Below are positions 1,427-42,164 of a DNA stretch of 42,979 bases, piece by piece (positions within the stretch are counted from its first letter, which is position 1; the number at the start of each line of letters is the position of its first letter). The notes beneath the pieces were generated by a model. That model did no database searches. It was given only the letters and a program-made list of their open reading frames with translations, and was not told where the DNA came from. The DNA comes from a virus. The stretch covers positions 1 through 42,979 of the IMG/VR virus record IMGVR_UViG_3300032731_000405; one strand, given 5' to 3'. A program made the position numbers and the translations under genes.

Positions 1427-1455
1427 TTGACACCACTTTGAGATGAGAGTAGAAG
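1427..1455 (+). promoter_or_regulatory. Putative sigma-70 promoter (TTGACA, weak -10)
   Basis: A perfect TTGACA at 1427-1432 is followed after 17 bases by TAGAAG at 1450-1455, which matches TATAAT at four of six positions. The predicted transcript would begin near 1461-1463, exactly where the structured leader starts. It would drive the small Cys gene at 1578 and the replication genes behind it. Confidence 0.5.
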
Positions 1456-1462
1456 GGGAGTA

Positions 1463-1560
1463 TGAGACAGAAAGAAATCCAAAATAGAAAATCCCATATA
1501 GGATTACACGGGTGGAATGCTTCATGCTTTCTGTCTCAGCCCGTGCCTGTATGGGATTTT
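1463..1560 (+). other. Structured RNA leader with long hairpin and pseudoknot
   Basis: Bases 1488-1502 pair with 1546-1560 (15 pairs, one G-U). After a 4-base bulge, 1507-1512 pairs with 1540-1545 (cacggg/cccgtg). The 27-base loop contains 1527-1538, a perfect 12-base complement of 1463-1474 (tgagacagaaag) upstream of the hairpin. So the upstream arm can pair with the hairpin loop as a pseudoknot, or compete with the hairpin. The element sits between a TTGACA promoter and the ribosome site at 1566-1570. It could be a leader switch, a small phage RNA or a protein-binding site; I do not recognise a known RNA family. Confidence 0.6.
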
Positions 1561-1577
1561 GTGCGTTGGAGGCGATA

Positions 1578-1781
1578 ATGGAAGATTTAAGAATTATCGA
1601 AACAAAGCAATGTTACTGCATCATTTGCGGCGAGTGGTTTCATCTGGGCGATCCTCAATTTCTCGAAATCTGCGATTCATATGGCATCGAAACCGGTGTC
1701 TGTTTTGTCTGTTGGAAAAAAATGGGCAAGAGTTTGTCTTGGTTCAAAAAAATAAATCGAAAAGAATATGAAGCAAACTAA
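1578..1781 (+). CDS. Small Cys-rich (zinc-finger-like) protein, 67 aa
   Basis: The ATG at 1578 follows GGAGG by 7 bases. Longer in-frame starts (1512) run into the structured leader and are rejected. Visible pairs are CIIC near residue 14 and CFVC near residue 42, which could bind one zinc ion as in a treble-clef or ribbon fold. Tail is basic. Function is unknown; it is the first gene behind the structured leader and overlaps the start of the initiator gene by 14 bases. Confidence 0.6.
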   Translation: MEDLRIIETKQCYCIICGEWFHLGDPQFLEICDSYGIETGVCFVCWKKMGKSLSWFKKINRKEYEAN

Positions 1782-2544
1782 AGCACAGCTTGAAGATGGC
1801 TATACGCGCATCGCCAAAGAGATAGTGGAGAAGTTGAGCCTTCTCTCACTAACCGGCGGTGAACTTCGTATCATGCTGACGGTTATGAGAAAGACCTACG
1901 GATGGAGAAAGAAGAAAGACCGCATCAGTCTTAGTCAATTTGAAAAAGCGACCGGACTACATCACACCAGCGTATGCAGAGTGGTCAAGAAGCTAGTAGC
2001 GCAGAGGCTACTACTAAAGACAGACGGCATTTATTCAATAAATACAAGGACTAATGAGTGGGGGGTAGTAGCACACACGCTACTAGCACAGAAGCCACTA
2101 GCACAGAAGCCACTAGCACAGAAGCCAGTAGCGCAGGAGTTGCCTGCTAGTAGCGCACACGCTACTGAAAGTAGTAGCGCACACGCTACACACAAAAGAA
2201 AGAAAGAAACTATACAAAAGAAAGTAGAGGCTTCGCCTCATACCAAAGAACTTATCACCCATTTTTCTTCCCTATACGAACAGACATATAAAAACACCTA
2301 CATCCCCGTATGGGGTAGAGATGGTAAAATAATCAAAGACCTTGTGGCGGGCATGGGTGGTAATAACGGTGATGGGGTGAATAACATCAAGGGCCGAATG
2401 AAAAACTACTTTGATCCTAGTTATAAATATAAAGGCAACTGCGACATACCTAGCTTTCAGAGGGCTTTTAACAGACTCGGTGCTGGCGACAGCAAAAAAG
2501 GATCAGATGATATCTTTTCTGACACAAACGGGGTGAACATATGA
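1768..2544 (+). CDS. Replication initiator, lambda O-like
   Basis: Residues 1-95 form a winged-helix domain typical of the phage replication protein O N-terminus (ELRIMLTVMRKTYGWRKKKD, then LSQFEKATGLHHTSVCRVVK). In this family the domain binds origin iterons and the C-terminal part recruits the helicase. The middle (about residues 100-140) is a repetitive LAQKP and SSAHAT linker encoded by DNA repeats that look like iterons, as in lambda, whose origin lies inside gene O. The C-terminal part (IPSFQRAFNRLG) resembles the helicase-recruiting end. The stop overlaps the helicase start (ATGA). The exact partner, phage or host helicase, is inferred from the adjacency. Confidence 0.85.
   Translation: MKQTKAQLEDGYTRIAKEIVEKLSLLSLTGGELRIMLTVMRKTYGWRKKKDRISLSQFEKATGLHHTSVCRVVKKLVAQRLLLKTDGIYSINTRTNEWGVVAHTLLAQKPLAQKPLAQKPVAQELPASSAHATESSSAHATHKRKKETIQKKVEASPHTKELITHFSSLYEQTYKNTYIPVWGRDGKIIKDLVAGMGGNNGDGVNNIKGRMKNYFDPSYKYKGNCDIPSFQRAFNRLGAGDSKKGSDDIFSDTNGVNI
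1996..2190. repeat. Iteron array and probable replication origin
   Basis: Four 16-base dyads of the form GTAGC-N6-GCTAC lie at 1996-2011, 2068-2083, 2150-2165 and 2174-2189. Between them are three perfect 15-base tandem repeats (actagcacagaagcc) at 2082-2126 with a degenerate fourth. All are inside the initiator gene, in the linker region, as the iterons of lambda are inside O. This strongly suggests the initiator binding sites and the origin. An A-rich tract (cacaaaagaaagaaagaaac, 2191-2210) follows immediately and could be the unwinding region. Confidence 0.75.
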
Positions 2545-3785
2545 GAGACTTAACTAAACGCTATCTAGGCTCAATCCTACTCAGACCAGACAATCTCATC
2601 AAGCACAAGGTTCAAACAGACGACGTCCATACAGACTACCGGGATCTCTATATGGCTATGATTGAGATTTTCGCCTCTAGTGACGGCCTCTCCGAACAGA
2701 CGCTATATCTTAAATGCAAAGACGAAAAATGGTGGCCCGGAACAGACCAGATCACCGCCTTGACGGAGGTGGCTGCCATACAGTCGCTATGTTCTACTTA
2801 CAGGAAAGAACTCTTGAAGGCGTCTAAACTTAATAAATTCAATATCTGGATGGAAAACATCAAGAACATCAGCCAGAGCCAGGACGATTACCTAGAGGTC
2901 GCCCAAAAAGAACTCATGGAGTTGACCAACGACGAGATAAGCCGCCCATACCAGGACCTAAAGACGGCCTCAAACGAATGGTTTAGCGAGCTAATAGACG
3001 ATACTGGGACCTCTAAAATCAAGATAGAGCCATTTATAGACGAAAATTGGCTTATCTACCGAGGGGGCCTTCACATAGTCGCCGGTCGTCCGGGCATGGG
3101 AAAGACGTCGCTTGCCCTATACATGATTCAGCAAGCACTCAAGAACGATCACGGGTGTCTGCTGTTCTCACTCGAAATGCCAAACGCTCAGATATTCAAA
3201 AAGTTATACGGAAACTGGGGAAATACCTACGATATTGATTACAGGATTGGGACCACGATTGACAAATACAAGGATCTCCCGCTTTATCTGTCTGACAGAA
3301 CGATAAACATTGACAGCATTAGGAGCGTTTCTAAATTTGTAAAACAGCGTCACGATATAAGCCTGATCGTGGTTGATTACTTGCAACAGATCGAGTCCAG
3401 GGGGAATTTGAGCCGGGAGGAACGAGTTTCCAATGTATCCAGGCAGCTCAAACTCTTATCAAAAGAAACCGATTGCGCGGTGATTGCCGTCGCCCAACTT
3501 AACCGACAAACCGAATCAAGGGATGGCAGACGGCCAACATTATCTGACTTGAGAGATTCAGGACAGATCGAGGCTGATGCTGATAGCGTGGTTTTGCTCT
3601 ACCGGCCAGAGTATTATGCTAAACTGGCGAAAAAAGAATGTCCCGAACACCAGAAAAATCTCGTCGAGGCCATTGTTGCGAAACAAAGAATGTCTGAAAG
3701 CGGGCTGATGTTTGCTCGGTGGGATAGGTCAATCAACGATTGGCGGGGATGGACTAAACGAGAAAACCAACAGGGGGCCATATGA
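2541..3785 (+). CDS. Replicative DNA helicase, DnaB-like
   Basis: The C-terminal RecA-like domain of DnaB helicases is clear: Walker A GRPGMGKT at residues 182-189, Walker B VVDYLQQI at 277-284, and AQLNRQTESR near 318 with the SDLRDSGQIEADAD segment after it. The N-terminal domain (1-100) is short and fits a DnaB-type N-terminus. At 414 residues it is slightly smaller than typical bacterial DnaB (about 450-470). It unwinds DNA 5'-3' at the fork using ATP. The start overlaps the initiator stop by four bases. No phage primase or polymerase is visible, so those are probably supplied by the host. Confidence 0.93.
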   Translation: MRDLTKRYLGSILLRPDNLIKHKVQTDDVHTDYRDLYMAMIEIFASSDGLSEQTLYLKCKDEKWWPGTDQITALTEVAAIQSLCSTYRKELLKASKLNKFNIWMENIKNISQSQDDYLEVAQKELMELTNDEISRPYQDLKTASNEWFSELIDDTGTSKIKIEPFIDENWLIYRGGLHIVAGRPGMGKTSLALYMIQQALKNDHGCLLFSLEMPNAQIFKKLYGNWGNTYDIDYRIGTTIDKYKDLPLYLSDRTINIDSIRSVSKFVKQRHDISLIVVDYLQQIESRGNLSREERVSNVSRQLKLLSKETDCAVIAVAQLNRQTESRDGRRPTLSDLRDSGQIEADADSVVLLYRPEYYAKLAKKECPEHQKNLVEAIVAKQRMSESGLMFARWDRSINDWRGWTKRENQQGAI

Positions 3786-5375: not shown

Positions 5376-5924
5376 ATGAGGAAAATTTTGTTACTTGTGG
5401 TGATGCTCTCAATGGTGAGTGCAGTAGCCCATGCGGATTTAAAATTCCGCGCACAAGGAAGCCCTGCTTTCAGTATATTGACAAAATATACCGAAGTGCC
5501 AGGAGTAAACGTCCGGGATTTTAACGTAGGCGCGAACTTTGAGGCCTCGGTGGAATTCTGGAAAGGTATCGGGTTTGGTATGGATTTCTTATATATGCCA
5601 GGTTCGTTTAGTATTGCCGGTTTTCCGGATGGTGATCTGAATATGTACGGATTGACCTTCGGCCCGCGTTACTACCTTCCAATCGCTCAAAACTTTGAGG
5701 CCTATGCTCTCGCCAATTTCGGTTGGTATAGATCAAATGGATCTTTGCTCGGCGTATCAATGCAAAAAGACGATTGGGGAATGAATTTCGGTGTTGGACT
5801 CAACTATATTTACAAAAATATGACGGTTGGAGTGAAATTTGCGGCTAATTACCTCGCCAACATTGGCGGTGGTGATGATGCTATGATTTACTCGTTAGGC
5901 CCGACGATAGGCGTTCGGTTCTAG
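5376..5924 (+). CDS. Outer-membrane beta-barrel protein with signal peptide
   Basis: The N-terminus MRKILLLVVMLSMVSAVAHA is a Sec signal peptide with an AHA-D cleavage site. The mature part alternates hydrophobic and polar residues with many Gly and aromatics (NVGANFEASVEFWKGIGFGM, YGLTFGPRYYLP) and ends in Phe (PTIGVRF), the Omp C-terminal signature. About 162 mature residues fit an eight-strand barrel of the OmpW/OmpA/Ail-Lom size. A strong AAAGGAGG site precedes the ATG. The protein would insert in the host outer membrane. By analogy with phage Lom-like proteins it may alter the cell surface or block superinfection, which is inference. Confidence 0.82.
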   Translation: MRKILLLVVMLSMVSAVAHADLKFRAQGSPAFSILTKYTEVPGVNVRDFNVGANFEASVEFWKGIGFGMDFLYMPGSFSIAGFPDGDLNMYGLTFGPRYYLPIAQNFEAYALANFGWYRSNGSLLGVSMQKDDWGMNFGVGLNYIYKNMTVGVKFAANYLANIGGGDDAMIYSLGPTIGVRF

Positions 5925-9652: not shown

Positions 9653-9892
9653 GGTACGTACTATGATAGAATACACAAAGAAAGAGGCTAACAAGCATAT
9701 AAGTCGGATACTTAGAGAGGCTGAGGTCCAGGATATTTTGATAACAGAGCGAGGGATGGGGGTAATTCTGCTCTCAAAGTACGTACAAGGGGGTAAAAAG
9801 GTACGTACAACTGAGGATAAGGTACGTACAACTGAGGATAAGGTACGTACAACTGAGGATAAGGTACGTACAACTGAGGATAAGGTACGTAC
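9653..9892. repeat. Seven GTACGTAC palindromes with 21-base tandem repeat
   Basis: The palindrome GTACGTAC occurs at 9654-9661, 9779-9786, 9801-9808, 9822-9829, 9843-9850, 9864-9871 and 9885-9892. The last five are in 21-base tandem units starting at 9800, 9821, 9842, 9863 and 9884 (the last shortened). The 21-base period is two helix turns, so all sites face the same side. The first site overlaps the ribosome region of the gene at 9663. The array lies between the terminase genes, making a packaging-start, operator or centromere-like role plausible. Confidence 0.9.
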
Positions 9893-9974
9893 AGAGGATG
9901 AGAAGGTTGCAACCTTTCTTGAGAAGGTTACAACAGATGATCGGCCATTCAGGTCGTTTCCGAAGCCGGGGTAA
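9663..9974 (+). CDS. Phd/YefM-like DNA-binding protein with 7-residue repeats
   Basis: Residues 1-41 (MIEYTKKEANKHISRILREA, EVQDILITERGMGVILLSKY) resemble the N-terminal fold of Phd/YefM antitoxins: helix, then strand-turn-strand ending in a V/I-L-L-S motif. Such domains dimerise and bind palindromic operators; Phd itself binds GTGTACAC-type palindromes. Residues 46-79 are five copies of KVRTTED (the last shortened), encoded by the GTACGTAC repeats. No toxin gene follows; the next gene is the large terminase, 2 bases after the stop. So this may be a stand-alone, self-binding DNA protein. The fold assignment is by eye. Confidence 0.6.
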   Translation: MIEYTKKEANKHISRILREAEVQDILITERGMGVILLSKYVQGGKKVRTTEDKVRTTEDKVRTTEDKVRTTEDKVRTEDEKVATFLEKVTTDDRPFRSFPKPG

Positions 9975-11377: not shown

Positions 11378-13354
11378 ATGGCAGTAACAATCACAAATCT
11401 CCGCTATCAGAGCGAGGGGAGTCAGATGAAGGTTGAGGGGACGTTGACCTTTGACACTTCTTATCCGACAGGTGGAGAAGCAATCACGGCGGTACAGTTA
11501 GGAATGGCGAGGATTGACCAGTTTTACATTGAGGATTCGGAGGGTTACACCTACGATTCCGACATAGTTTCTGGCAATCTCAGCACGAAGATCGTGGTCT
11601 ATGACGCGACGGCATCTGGGGCTATAGGGACGGAGCAGACTCACGTTCATCCAGTTGCATTGGATGGTGGGTCGAGTGCGGCGGTCAGTCATACACATGC
11701 GGACACGTTGGCGGTGAACGCTGCAGCGTGTACAGGAACGAGTGCAGCGGGGTCGTCCCACACCCATGCGGACACGTTAGCGGTAGGTTCGGCGGCTTGT
11801 GCAGGAACGAGTGATGTAGGGGCTAGCCACACCCATGCTGATACATTAGCTGTAAATGCAGCCGCTTGTACTGGGACGAGCGCGGTAGGTGCTTCCCATG
11901 TTCATGCGGTTGGGTCGTTGGCGATAACCGACGCGTCGTTCACAGGATCGTCAGCAGCGGTGAGTCATAATCATGCGGACAATTTAGCGATTAATTCGGC
12001 GGCTTTGACGGGATCGTCGGCGGCGGTGAGTCATACCCATGCGGACACGTTAGCGGTAAATAGCGCAGCTTTGACGGGAACGTCGGCAGCCGGGGCTTCT
12101 CACACTCATGCGATAGCGGGAGTAACGAACGCGGTAAGTGACGTCACGGCGATGATAGCCTATCCCGATGGGGCGGGCATTACGAAGCCTGTAATTGCTT
12201 TAACGCATAACGCTGATCCGGTAGCGAATTTAGCCGCTTCTCTTTTATTTGTAACCGAGGCATACGAGTTAGCAGGGGCCAACGTGGGTATTCTTCAATC
12301 GAATTGTGCTGGCACGACGAGCATTTCCGGTGAGACAGCGAACGGGACTGTTTACGCAGTAGCGGCATCGACGAGATTTTGGGTGACTCATAATGCAACT
12401 CCAACAGGCGTTCAGATTTACGTTAATGAGGGTGCGGCAGATCAGTTGGAATGTATTTCTCCGACAGGGGCAGATTGCTATGTTATGTTTCCATTTGAGT
12501 CAGCAGCGGGGTCGGTAGCAGCTGGTTGTGCGGTAAAGATCACTCATAACGCGTCGGCGGATTCGGGCAAGGTACTTTATTTCGATGATAATGGTGCGGC
12601 AGACGCTCAGTTAGTATTTATTGATGCTGGCGCAGGTGGTGGAGTAATACCGGCAGCCGACATTCTTCCGATTTTAAACACCGGAACGATAATTGGCGAG
12701 AGTTCTGTAGTGGGCGTAGCGGCTGCTCAGGGATTAACTGGCAATGTTACCGCTGAGGCCACCCATACTCATGCGGTAGGTTCTTTGGCTTTAAACGACA
12801 CCACGTTGAGTGGTTCGGTCACGGCGGAAGCGGCCCACGTTCATGCGGTTGGCACGTTGGCCTTAAACGACACCACATTAAGTGGTTCGGTCACGGCGGA
12901 AGCGGCCCACGTTCATGGCGTAGGGACTTTTGCTCTTACGACAGCCGCCTTAACGGGATCGGCAGATGCAGAAGCGGCCCATACTCATGCGGTTGGAAGT
13001 TACGCGCTTAATGACACAACTTTAAGCGGTTCGGTCACAGCCGAAGCGACTCACACTCACGCAGTAGGTTCAATCGCTCTAAACAGCACAGCGTTGACCG
13101 GTTCAGTTACAGCAGAAGCCGCTCACACACACGCCGTTGGGAGTTACGCATTGAACGACCTTACTCTCTCTGGCTCAGTTACCGCCGAGGCAGCACATGT
13201 TCATGGTCCGGGATCACTCGCAGACGCAGCTACCGGAGTTTCGGCAGCAGCACACACACATAGTTTAACTGGTGCAGGAGCAGCCCTTACAGAGGTTGCC
13301 CCGGCCACAAACCTATCGACTTTAGCCGTCGACTTTATGGCTATTGGAGTTTAA
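11378..13354 (+). CDS. His-x-His repeat structural or fibre protein, 658 aa
   Basis: At least 16 HxH motifs (SHTHADTLAV, AHVHAVGSLALND and variants) lie in two repeat blocks of about 20-25 residues per unit, residues 85-260 and 455-650. Between them is a globular region of about 190 residues (from about 265) with THN motifs. HxH repeats in T4 gp37 bind iron along the trimeric fibre tip, so a metal-stabilised trimeric fibre or fibrous decoration is the best guess. The Ala/Gly/Thr/Ser-rich composition fits beta-fibre proteins. Unusual is its place between terminase and portal. AGGAGG precedes the ATG. Confidence 0.65.
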   Translation: MAVTITNLRYQSEGSQMKVEGTLTFDTSYPTGGEAITAVQLGMARIDQFYIEDSEGYTYDSDIVSGNLSTKIVVYDATASGAIGTEQTHVHPVALDGGSSAAVSHTHADTLAVNAAACTGTSAAGSSHTHADTLAVGSAACAGTSDVGASHTHADTLAVNAAACTGTSAVGASHVHAVGSLAITDASFTGSSAAVSHNHADNLAINSAALTGSSAAVSHTHADTLAVNSAALTGTSAAGASHTHAIAGVTNAVSDVTAMIAYPDGAGITKPVIALTHNADPVANLAASLLFVTEAYELAGANVGILQSNCAGTTSISGETANGTVYAVAASTRFWVTHNATPTGVQIYVNEGAADQLECISPTGADCYVMFPFESAAGSVAAGCAVKITHNASADSGKVLYFDDNGAADAQLVFIDAGAGGGVIPAADILPILNTGTIIGESSVVGVAAAQGLTGNVTAEATHTHAVGSLALNDTTLSGSVTAEAAHVHAVGTLALNDTTLSGSVTAEAAHVHGVGTFALTTAALTGSADAEAAHTHAVGSYALNDTTLSGSVTAEATHTHAVGSIALNSTALTGSVTAEAAHTHAVGSYALNDLTLSGSVTAEAAHVHGPGSLADAATGVSAAAHTHSLTGAGAALTEVAPATNLSTLAVDFMAIGV

Positions 13355-17148: not shown

Positions 17149-18354
17149 ATGACAATAGCGAACTTGACACAAATGGACGCGATTTTTAAGCGCAACTATA
17201 ACGAAGGGGCAGATGTTCTGATTAAACAGCAGAACCTCAAGGCTCCGATTTGGAGTAAATTTAAACAGTCACCGTTAAAACCCTCACCACAGGGCATTTA
17301 TAACCCGGTGACAATGCAAGGCAACGAAGCGGGTGGGGCGATATGGGAAGAAGAAAGTTTCCAAGCACCAGATGCGATCGAGCCGGCACAGCCATCAATC
17401 TCCGCCAAACTCGTCGTATGGCCGTTCTATGTAACAGGATCGGTTATTCGCCAGAGTGAGACGGATAAAGTGGCGTTTGCCAAAGGTTTAGACGCACAGC
17501 AGCAGGATAACTTGGGCCGTATGTATGCCGACCTCAACCGTCAGGCTTGGGGAACAGGAACCGGCCAGATCACTCTTGCTAACGGGGCTGGTACACCGGC
17601 AACAGCTTTGATCGTTGATGACCCATTTCCATTTAGAGTTGGCATGAAGATCGACGCTTATGCTTCGATCGGTGGGGCCTTAGAGATAGATGGGGTCGAA
17701 ATCACGGCAATCAACTACACAACCTCGACATTGACGATTGCGAGTTCAACTTGGTCGAATAACGCAGTCATCTGTAAGAAAAACGTCTTAAACGGCGTAA
17801 CCGGCACAACCTATAAAGAGCTGATGGGATGGAGAGGTATCTGTGATACCACGACATACTCAGCGACTTTTGAGGGTGTTGCTGTAGCAGATTACTCTCA
17901 ATGGCAGGGAAATGTAGTAAGTGCGGCAACCGCACCGGTATCTCAGGATCTCTTACAGAGGACCTTTAACCAGGCCGCAGTTATCGGTGGAGAAACCCCC
18001 GATATGCTTTGTTCAAACTACGGTCAGGCCAGAACCTTCCTAAACACCGAACTCCAGAAAACTCGTTATGAGCCGGGTTCAGTAAAAGGTGGGAACACCG
18101 TCCTTAAATGGGGACCGATGGAATGGATCGTTGACCACACATATCCGATTGCAGAAGTCGGTATGATGGTTAAATCTGGAGTTGAAAAATTCCAGACCAA
18201 AGACGTCCATCTCTCCGATCTTCCTGGACAGTCCTTGTATCAGATAGTGGGTAGAGACGCCATTGGCGGATACTATTGCTATCAGGGGAATTTGGGAACC
18301 TGGAAGAGAAACAACCAGAGCAGACTCATTGATTTGACCGAACCTACATTCTAA
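17149..18354 (+). CDS. Major capsid protein, 401 aa
   Basis: The protein has the N-terminal arm and the order of helices and strands of HK97-fold capsids, with E-E-S-F-Q-A-P-D-A-I-E near residues 67-77 and a Gly/Asn/Thr-rich middle domain (residues 140-230) that may be an inserted lobe. Placement after the scaffold and portal, and the 400-residue size, support the call. It assembles the icosahedral shell. A strong AGGAGG site precedes the ATG, 1 base after the scaffold stop. Assignment to a specific capsid family needs a structural search. Confidence 0.85.
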   Translation: MTIANLTQMDAIFKRNYNEGADVLIKQQNLKAPIWSKFKQSPLKPSPQGIYNPVTMQGNEAGGAIWEEESFQAPDAIEPAQPSISAKLVVWPFYVTGSVIRQSETDKVAFAKGLDAQQQDNLGRMYADLNRQAWGTGTGQITLANGAGTPATALIVDDPFPFRVGMKIDAYASIGGALEIDGVEITAINYTTSTLTIASSTWSNNAVICKKNVLNGVTGTTYKELMGWRGICDTTTYSATFEGVAVADYSQWQGNVVSAATAPVSQDLLQRTFNQAAVIGGETPDMLCSNYGQARTFLNTELQKTRYEPGSVKGGNTVLKWGPMEWIVDHTYPIAEVGMMVKSGVEKFQTKDVHLSDLPGQSLYQIVGRDAIGGYYCYQGNLGTWKRNNQSRLIDLTEPTF

Positions 18355-18366
18355 AGGGTGGGGTAA

Positions 18367-18384
18367 GGGGGGCGAAAGCCCCCC
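18367..18384 (+). terminator. GC hairpin after the capsid gene
   Basis: GGGGGGC-GAAA-GCCCCCC: seven perfect pairs closed by a stable GNRA tetraloop, 13 bases after the capsid stop. No T-run follows, so it may lower read-through or protect the capsid mRNA rather than end transcription fully. The next gene start (18401) lacks a clear ribosome site, and the hairpin lies between the G-rich tract and that start. Confidence 0.7.
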
Positions 18385-18400
18385 GATACCTTAAAATATT

Positions 18401-41618: not shown

Positions 41619-41650
41619 TTTGGTCGTGGAGGCCGTGGGTAGTCCTCGGC

Positions 41651-41684
41651 GGGAGGGGTGGGTGCTGTAGTGGCGGCCCCTCCC
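41651..41684 (+). other. GC hairpin between the SSB-like and next gene
   Basis: GGGAGGGG (41651-41658) pairs perfectly with CCCCTCCC (41677-41684) around an 18-base loop. No T-run follows. It lies in the 87-base gap before the gene at 41706 and could modulate read-through or mRNA stability. Confidence 0.55.
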
Positions 41685-41705
41685 TACTCCTAAAAAGGGG
41701 GAAAA

Positions 41706-42164
41706 ATGAACAGGGAAGATATAATCAAGGCGATACATGAAGGAGAAAAGAATTGGATTATCGGAGGTAAAGACAGAGAGTTTTGTGAAACTGCTCCTAG
41801 AGAAGAGTGTATAGCCTCCGCCATCATGGAAGTGTTGAAAGAGAGGGAATGGACTAAAGATATGTACAACAGAGATGTATGCGATACTTGTGGGGCAGTA
41901 CAACATACAGTTCCAGAGTGGGAGCAAAGAATAAACATTTTTGCGGAGAGGTTAGACCACGAAACTGAACGAGACAAGGGGACAAAACAACATACTGTTT
42001 TCAACTACAACGGAAAGAGAATAGGTGACTATCTCAAAGACTTCATACGTTCAGAGTTTAAGAAGTTGGGTGAGGAGGTTGCTTTCTCTGACGATCAATA
42101 CTTCAGGGAATTAGTTCAACCACACATTGATAAAGCCCTCAAGAAAAGGGGGGTAGATGTCTAA
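41706..42164 (+). CDS. Hypothetical early protein, 152 aa
   Basis: ATG at 41706 follows AAGGGGGAA. The protein is highly charged and helical (REDIIKAIHEGEKNWIIGGK, RLDHETERDKGTKQHTVFNY), with one Cys pair VCDTCGA near residue 58. No domain recognised. It overlaps the next gene by 8 bases. Confidence 0.6.
   Translation: MNREDIIKAIHEGEKNWIIGGKDREFCETAPREECIASAIMEVLKEREWTKDMYNRDVCDTCGAVQHTVPEWEQRINIFAERLDHETERDKGTKQHTVFNYNGKRIGDYLKDFIRSEFKKLGEEVAFSDDQYFRELVQPHIDKALKKRGVDV

Follow-up and report, generated by a model that had tools for sequence, protein, structure and literature searches.

In the plasmids of the IncI-alpha group, a pseudoknot activates translation and an antisense RNA regulates it; the pseudoknot switch in the I-complex/IncI-alpha rep leader was reportedly described by Asano and Mizobuchi in 1998 (cited in PMC10724649). 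Among phages, the T7 early mRNA and the lambda N and cIII leaders carry stems that are cut or bound by RNase III. Translation of the leader peptide preceding rep in I-complex plasmids (the repB leader) is required for rep expression (PMC10286972). RNase III binds the mRNA of lambda cIII and lifts a structure that inhibits it (PMC2777011); modulation of the lambda N leader by this enzyme is described in work cited in PMC5725501. Unfolding of a ribosome-binding site (RBS) through upstream translation is an established mechanism of coupling between genes (PMC12548453). In the MS2 coat-lysis, f1 VII-IX and rpmI-rplT pairs the upstream frame crosses a structure that hides the RBS, and stop and start overlap (PMC12548453).

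We compare these systems with a leader located upstream of the replication genes of a virus. The DNA analyzed, hereafter the window, is a stretch of 42,979 nucleotides (positions 1 to 42,979 of IMG/VR record IMGVR_UViG_3300032731_000405). Like the I-complex/IncI-alpha rep control (repY-repZ/repB-repA), the phage leader combines a short leader ORF ahead of replication genes with a structured RNA, one loop of which can pair with a segment farther away, and with apparent coupling to the next gene. It differs in that the phage pairing would cover the start codon of the leader ORF, whereas the IncI pseudoknot activates translation, and in that the first coupled phage gene (67 aa) is not the initiator. 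No homologous IncI-type leader/rep or replicon was found in 72,556 plasmids, and the genes downstream are of the phage O/DnaB type. A consensus scan of the minus strand near the region found no sigma-70-like site that could serve as promoter for an antisense RNA, such a scan being unable to exclude an RNA of this kind.

The lambda cIII mRNA and N leader resemble our leader, which would likewise be an early-gene leader with an inhibitory structure near the RBS. However, no sequence relation was found to these bistable or RNase III-modulated leaders, and the fold described here lies inside a small ORF. The likeness to MS2, f1 and rpmI-rplT extends to a frame that crosses a structure partly covering the next RBS and to the overlap of stop and start, but the upstream frame is here a 38-codon orphan with a putative 12-nt lock of its own on the start codon. 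In function, coupled leader ORFs with a structure over the RBS, the I-complex rep leader and the RNase III-responsive lambda leaders come closest; none is related in sequence, and membership of these groups is not claimed.

Hairpin, loop complement and leader ORF

The features of the region and of the genes that follow it are given in Table 1. The preliminary description of this DNA had drawn a hairpin of 15+6 pairs at 1488-1560, with a 12-base segment in its loop complementary to an upstream one. Every claimed base pair is present, both in the sequence and upon folding, and the complement is perfect. RNA folding, which had been named as a check, bears the structure out: the minimum free energy of 1455-1590 is -45.5 kcal/mol (z = -3.95), and none of 200 shuffled sequences is equally stable. 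The basal helix, which extends the stem downward, reaches a pairing probability near 1 after position 1569 has been transcribed. The segments 1463-1474 and 1527-1538 form the sole perfect 12-nt inverted repeat with a loop of up to 120 nt in the window, where whole-window shuffles contain 0.25 on average, and shuffling the local 126 nt recreates such a complement in 6 of 20,000 trials. The 15-pair stem, with G-U pairs allowed, is less special alone (4 in the window versus about 1 per shuffle). What is improbable is the hairpin combined with the 12-nt complement, and the case rests on this combination rather than on the stem.

Table 1. Positions of the leader features and downstream genes in the window
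Feature	Position	Strand	Remarks
TTGACA box, weak promoter candidate	1427..1432	+	Hexamer 17 nt downstream is TAGAAG
Shine-Dalgarno-like AAGGGGAG of leader ORF	1453..1460	+	Anti-SD duplex -7.9 kcal/mol; spacing short, 2 nt
Leader ORF, 38 codons, MRQKEIQNRKSHIGLHGWNASCFLSQPVPVWDFVRWRR, then stop	1462..1578	+	Spans the whole structure; ATG and SD
Arm a, UGAGACAGAAAG	1463..1474	+	Perfect 12-nt complement of 1527-1538; overlaps leader ORF start codon
Basal helix UCCAA	1478..1482	+	Extends stem downward; pairs with UUGGA 1566-1570, inside downstream Shine-Dalgarno region
Main stem, 5' arm	1488..1502	+	Pairs with 1546-1560; 15 pairs, one G-U (1499:1549); from sequence and folding
Upper stem, 5' arm	1507..1512	+	6 pairs with 1540-1545; 4-nt bulge 1503-1506 (5' side) beneath
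Arm a', CUUUCUGUCUCA	1527..1538	+	Within main-hairpin loop; complement of arm a
Upper stem, 3' arm	1540..1545	+	Partner of 1507-1512
Main stem, 3' arm	1546..1560	+	Partner of 1488-1502
Shine-Dalgarno UUGGAGG(C) of gene at 1578	1566..1573	+	Anti-SD -9.3 kcal/mol; half paired in hairpin base
TAATG	1576..1580	+	Leader ORF stop overlapping start of gene at 1578
67-aa protein, two CxxC-type pairs	1578..1781	+	Proposed first gene controlled; no accepted family match
Lambda O-like replication initiation protein	1768..2544	+	Phage_rep_O E=5.8e-25; TIGR01610
DnaB-like replicative helicase	2541..3785	+	phrog_19 E=4e-67

The picture of a non-coding leader is probably incomplete, as the preliminary description had overlooked a 38-codon ORF that would be coupled to the gene at 1578. 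The gene at 841 has the same anti-SD energy at its start as this ORF. When the region was shuffled 5000 times with the TAA fixed, an ATG frame with an SD ran into that stop over at least 38 codons in 4 cases and over at least 30 codons in 13. Among the traits of a coupled leader ORF, an RBS of its own upstream and a stop overlapping the downstream start (TAATG) are present, but a coding-like upstream frame is not: its codon usage resembles that of non-coding frames, with a score of -10.0 bits where real segments average +8.5 and where 0.7% of those of 38 codons score this low. The constraints of the structure could have caused this usage, and leader peptides do not strictly require coding-like codon usage. 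Neither phages nor the loci compared yielded a homologue of the peptide.

We compared the fold with synonymous recodings of the leader peptide (z = -3.9). Just 1 of 2000 variants is as stable, so that the peptide sequence does not account for the fold; among synonymous permutations of the ORF, 3 of 1000 reach the native stability. The region thus seems to carry an RNA fold as well as a plausible leader ORF, the ORF being the less certain of the two.

Predicted competing folds and the start at 1578

On the growing RNA, pairing of 1463-1474 with 1527-1538 forms, together with two nested helices, a fold of -23.3 kcal/mol that dominates in transcripts ending at about 1542-1551. The main hairpin overtakes it at about 1554-1557 and prevails outright from about 1557. 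This order is independent of the 5' end, since transcripts starting at 1384, 1440 and 1462, the three that were tried, agree. It is therefore plausible, on these calculations, that two folds compete, the 12-bp pairing while the RNA is being made and the hairpin afterwards. The preliminary description had left the choice between a pseudoknot and a two-state switch. The fold energies speak for the two states, while a full 12-bp pseudoknot on the intact hairpin appears strained, the linker reaching about 87 Å against about 92 Å of stacked helix by a crude estimate. A pseudoknot of 8 bp would fit (-10.8 kcal/mol) and keep the small loop hairpin intact, by an equally crude geometric estimate.

The hairpin also bears on the downstream start. 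The GGAGG core of the Shine-Dalgarno sequence is about 47% unpaired natively and 80% unpaired when the main stem is held open. In addition, 1573-1579 can pair with 1593-1599 in a 7-bp hairpin across the start codon of the gene at 1578, and the AUG is 66% paired through this separate small hairpin. As the Shine-Dalgarno sequence is only half occluded, the block may be leaky. Two other candidates, a GTG at 1512 as in-frame upstream start of the 67-aa gene and an ORF at 1517-1771, are disfavored by a weak SD or poor codon usage.

When a ribosome is modeled as a mask near the end of the leader ORF, the SD and start of the gene at 1578 become free, and the pairing of arms a and a' re-forms behind the ribosome with a probability of 0.99 at codon 34 and 0.44 at codon 37. 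The fold and ribosome models are equilibrium calculations with crude masks, so that a mechanism is suggested by them, not proven. Taken together, the structure is real, it can by calculation take two folds, and it carries a tiny ORF ending on the next start, which may amount to a translation switch.

Relatives, promoter and neighboring genes

In position and size the region is like the riboswitches and leader RNAs of Rfam, but no family matches it, whether at gathering score or at a relaxed E-value, in agreement with the earlier statement that no known riboswitch or phage RNA could be recognized. Sub-threshold matches to CRISPR-DR17 and a snoRNA were put down to chance. Comparison of the region by blastn with phages, plasmids (72,556) and E. 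coli genomes returned nothing real, and exact two-arm DNA patterns were absent from IMG/VR viral contigs and GTDB genomes; a mobile element with copies elsewhere is unsupported by these same collections. Protein scans with DnaB, the 67-aa gene and the gene at 17149, each alone, revealed no relatives. The terminase has relatives in distant phages only (about 37-52% identity), with no other window gene in common save one weak portal match. Relatives of the O-like protein were found at 12 loci (31-47% identity), and the DnaB alignment comprises 160 loci (at most 43% identity); the leader peptide and the 67-aa gene are absent from all of these loci. A covariance-model search had also been proposed. 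Built from the single sequence and run over 252 loci, the model gave nothing convincing (best E 1.7), and its minus-strand self-match is merely the palindrome. In the collections searched, the leader region is a single orphan locus, with no relative carrying it.

The TTGACA box at 1427, described earlier as a perfect promoter box placing the transcript start at the first arm, is exact, yet one of 24 in the window. TAGAAG is the only tolerable -10 hexamer, matching at 4 of 6 positions and without the final T. The site fails a promoter scan, and the predicted start at about 1462 is therefore unsupported. As the upstream genes run in the same direction, read-through into the leader would be equally likely.

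The position before the replication genes, also part of the preliminary description, is borne out by the Phage_rep_O and DnaB-like matches downstream. Neighboring genes of the operon likewise overlap stop to start. Within the O-like gene, 2069-2136 contains 4.5 copies of an iteron-like 15-bp repeat (TAGCACAGAAGCCAC). These are probable iterons of a lambda-like origin, the lambda origin likewise having its repeats within the gene. At about 2080-2200 the minus strand folds very stably. On the other side of the leader, the duplicated boundaries GATGAAACTGATTTAAT and GCGTTGGAGG (1142-1174/1397-1429 and 1161-1186/1555-1580) flank a gene at 1184-1384, and CGATAATGGA is found twice, at 1379 and at 1573. 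This arrangement suggests an insertion of the gene at 1184-1384 that separated the gene at 841 from the leader and left 12 codons of the 841 tail behind as a remnant (1384-1422).

Several other regions of the window deserve mention. The gene at 5376-5924 encodes an outer-membrane beta-barrel protein (OMP_b-brl, E=1.5e-10) whose N-terminus is signal-like and which may serve in surface exclusion or host modification; a beta barrel of the outer-membrane type suggests a Gram-negative host. Two intergenic gaps are structured. The 87-nt gap at 41619-41705 has a hairpin, GGGAGGGG...CCCCTCCC, directly upstream of the gene at 41706 and folds at -43.1 kcal/mol (z = -3.3 versus mononucleotide shuffles). 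The 46-nt gap at 18355-18400 follows the 401-aa gene at 17149, which from its position is taken as that of the major capsid protein, and contains a strong hairpin (-26.5 kcal/mol, z = -4.2) that probably acts in termination or processing. Repeats are found near the terminase gene: 9663-9974, directly before the terminase gene, encodes a small protein with 4.6 exact 21-bp repeats (KVRTTED), and 11378-13354, adjoining the terminase, a 658-aa protein built from degenerate repeats of 66-72 bp (HTHADTLAVN.. type) with no PHROG match.

Alternative readings and a proposed switch

The leader might be non-coding, its hairpin and 12-bp pairing, as a partial pseudoknot or two-state element, regulating initiation at 1578 directly through a ligand or protein, and the ORF being incidental. 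Bistable folding, partial occlusion of the SD and a codon usage that is not coding-like are all consistent with such a leader. We nevertheless hold it unlikely, as an ORF with both an SD and a TAATG overlap is improbable by chance and no Rfam family matches. Equally unlikely in our view is a hairpin for mRNA processing or stability between early genes, that is, an irregular stem with a putative site for the host RNase III that would free the RBS at 1578, the 12-bp pairing being secondary. Although its 21-28 pairs or so, its asymmetric bulge, a compatible stem length and its place directly upstream of the RBS recall the lambda cIII (PMC2777011) and N leader (cited in PMC5725501) precedents, such a hairpin leaves the perfect 12-nt loop complement and the coupled ORF unexplained.

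A DNA-level origin, either as inverted protein-binding sites or as a quasi-palindrome or recombination scar of local duplications with no RNA function, is harder still to credit. The area is visibly rearranged, as the duplicated boundaries and the two copies of CGATAATGGA attest, and the 12-nt inverted repeat is a lone one against a whole-window expectation of 0.25. However, a relic of this sort would hardly combine a strong hairpin, an SD overlap and a start-codon overlap, and it has no copies in phages, plasmids, E. coli, viral contigs or GTDB genomes. As for an intrinsic terminator or attenuator at the 3' arm of the hairpin, a weak terminator-like match at 1540-1555 is outweighed by a tail consisting only of AUUUUGUG and by a d'Aubenton-Carafa score of -34, where values below 0 indicate no terminator. 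By this score the arm does not qualify as a GC-rich stem followed by a U-tract, and we rejected this reading as extremely improbable.

The account we prefer, if tentatively and with slightly less than even confidence, is a cis-acting translation switch heading the replication operon, in which a short coupled leader ORF is joined to a bistable hairpin that locks start codon and RBS. The pairings, their improbability, the order of the folds and the ORF with its SD and stop/start overlap are computed. The switch would stand at the head of a tightly packed operon of the 67-aa gene, the O-like initiator and the DnaB-like helicase. In the finished RNA, a 28-pair hairpin would bury half of the SD of the gene at 1578, whose start codon would be further weakened by the 7-bp hairpin. 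The free 5' segment 1463-1474 could pair with the loop of the hairpin, in part as a pseudoknot, and would then cover the start codon of the leader ORF. A ribosome could start on this ORF most easily on nascent RNA, before 1527-1538 emerges, and would then melt the hairpin; terminating on TAATG, it may reinitiate at the start of the gene at 1578 or simply expose it. Once the ribosome has come to the last part of the ORF, re-formation of the 12-bp pairing behind it could limit further entry. What we infer is that the leader ORF is translated and coupled, how the 12-bp pairing acts, and any trigger.

We may also hypothesize a closer analogy, a leader-peptide/pseudoknot switch like that of IncI rep but of independent origin, where the 5' segment locks the start of the ORF and only ribosomes on nascent transcripts would open the replication genes; this stricter version seems unlikely.

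As a single orphan case, the cis-acting translation switch is at present of value as a hypothesis that can be tested by mutating defined base pairs. The timing of phage replication genes is usually ascribed to transcription. If true, a self-contained lock made of RNA and leader peptide at the entry to the O/DnaB operon would represent a second, translational timer and a parallel to plasmid copy-number control.
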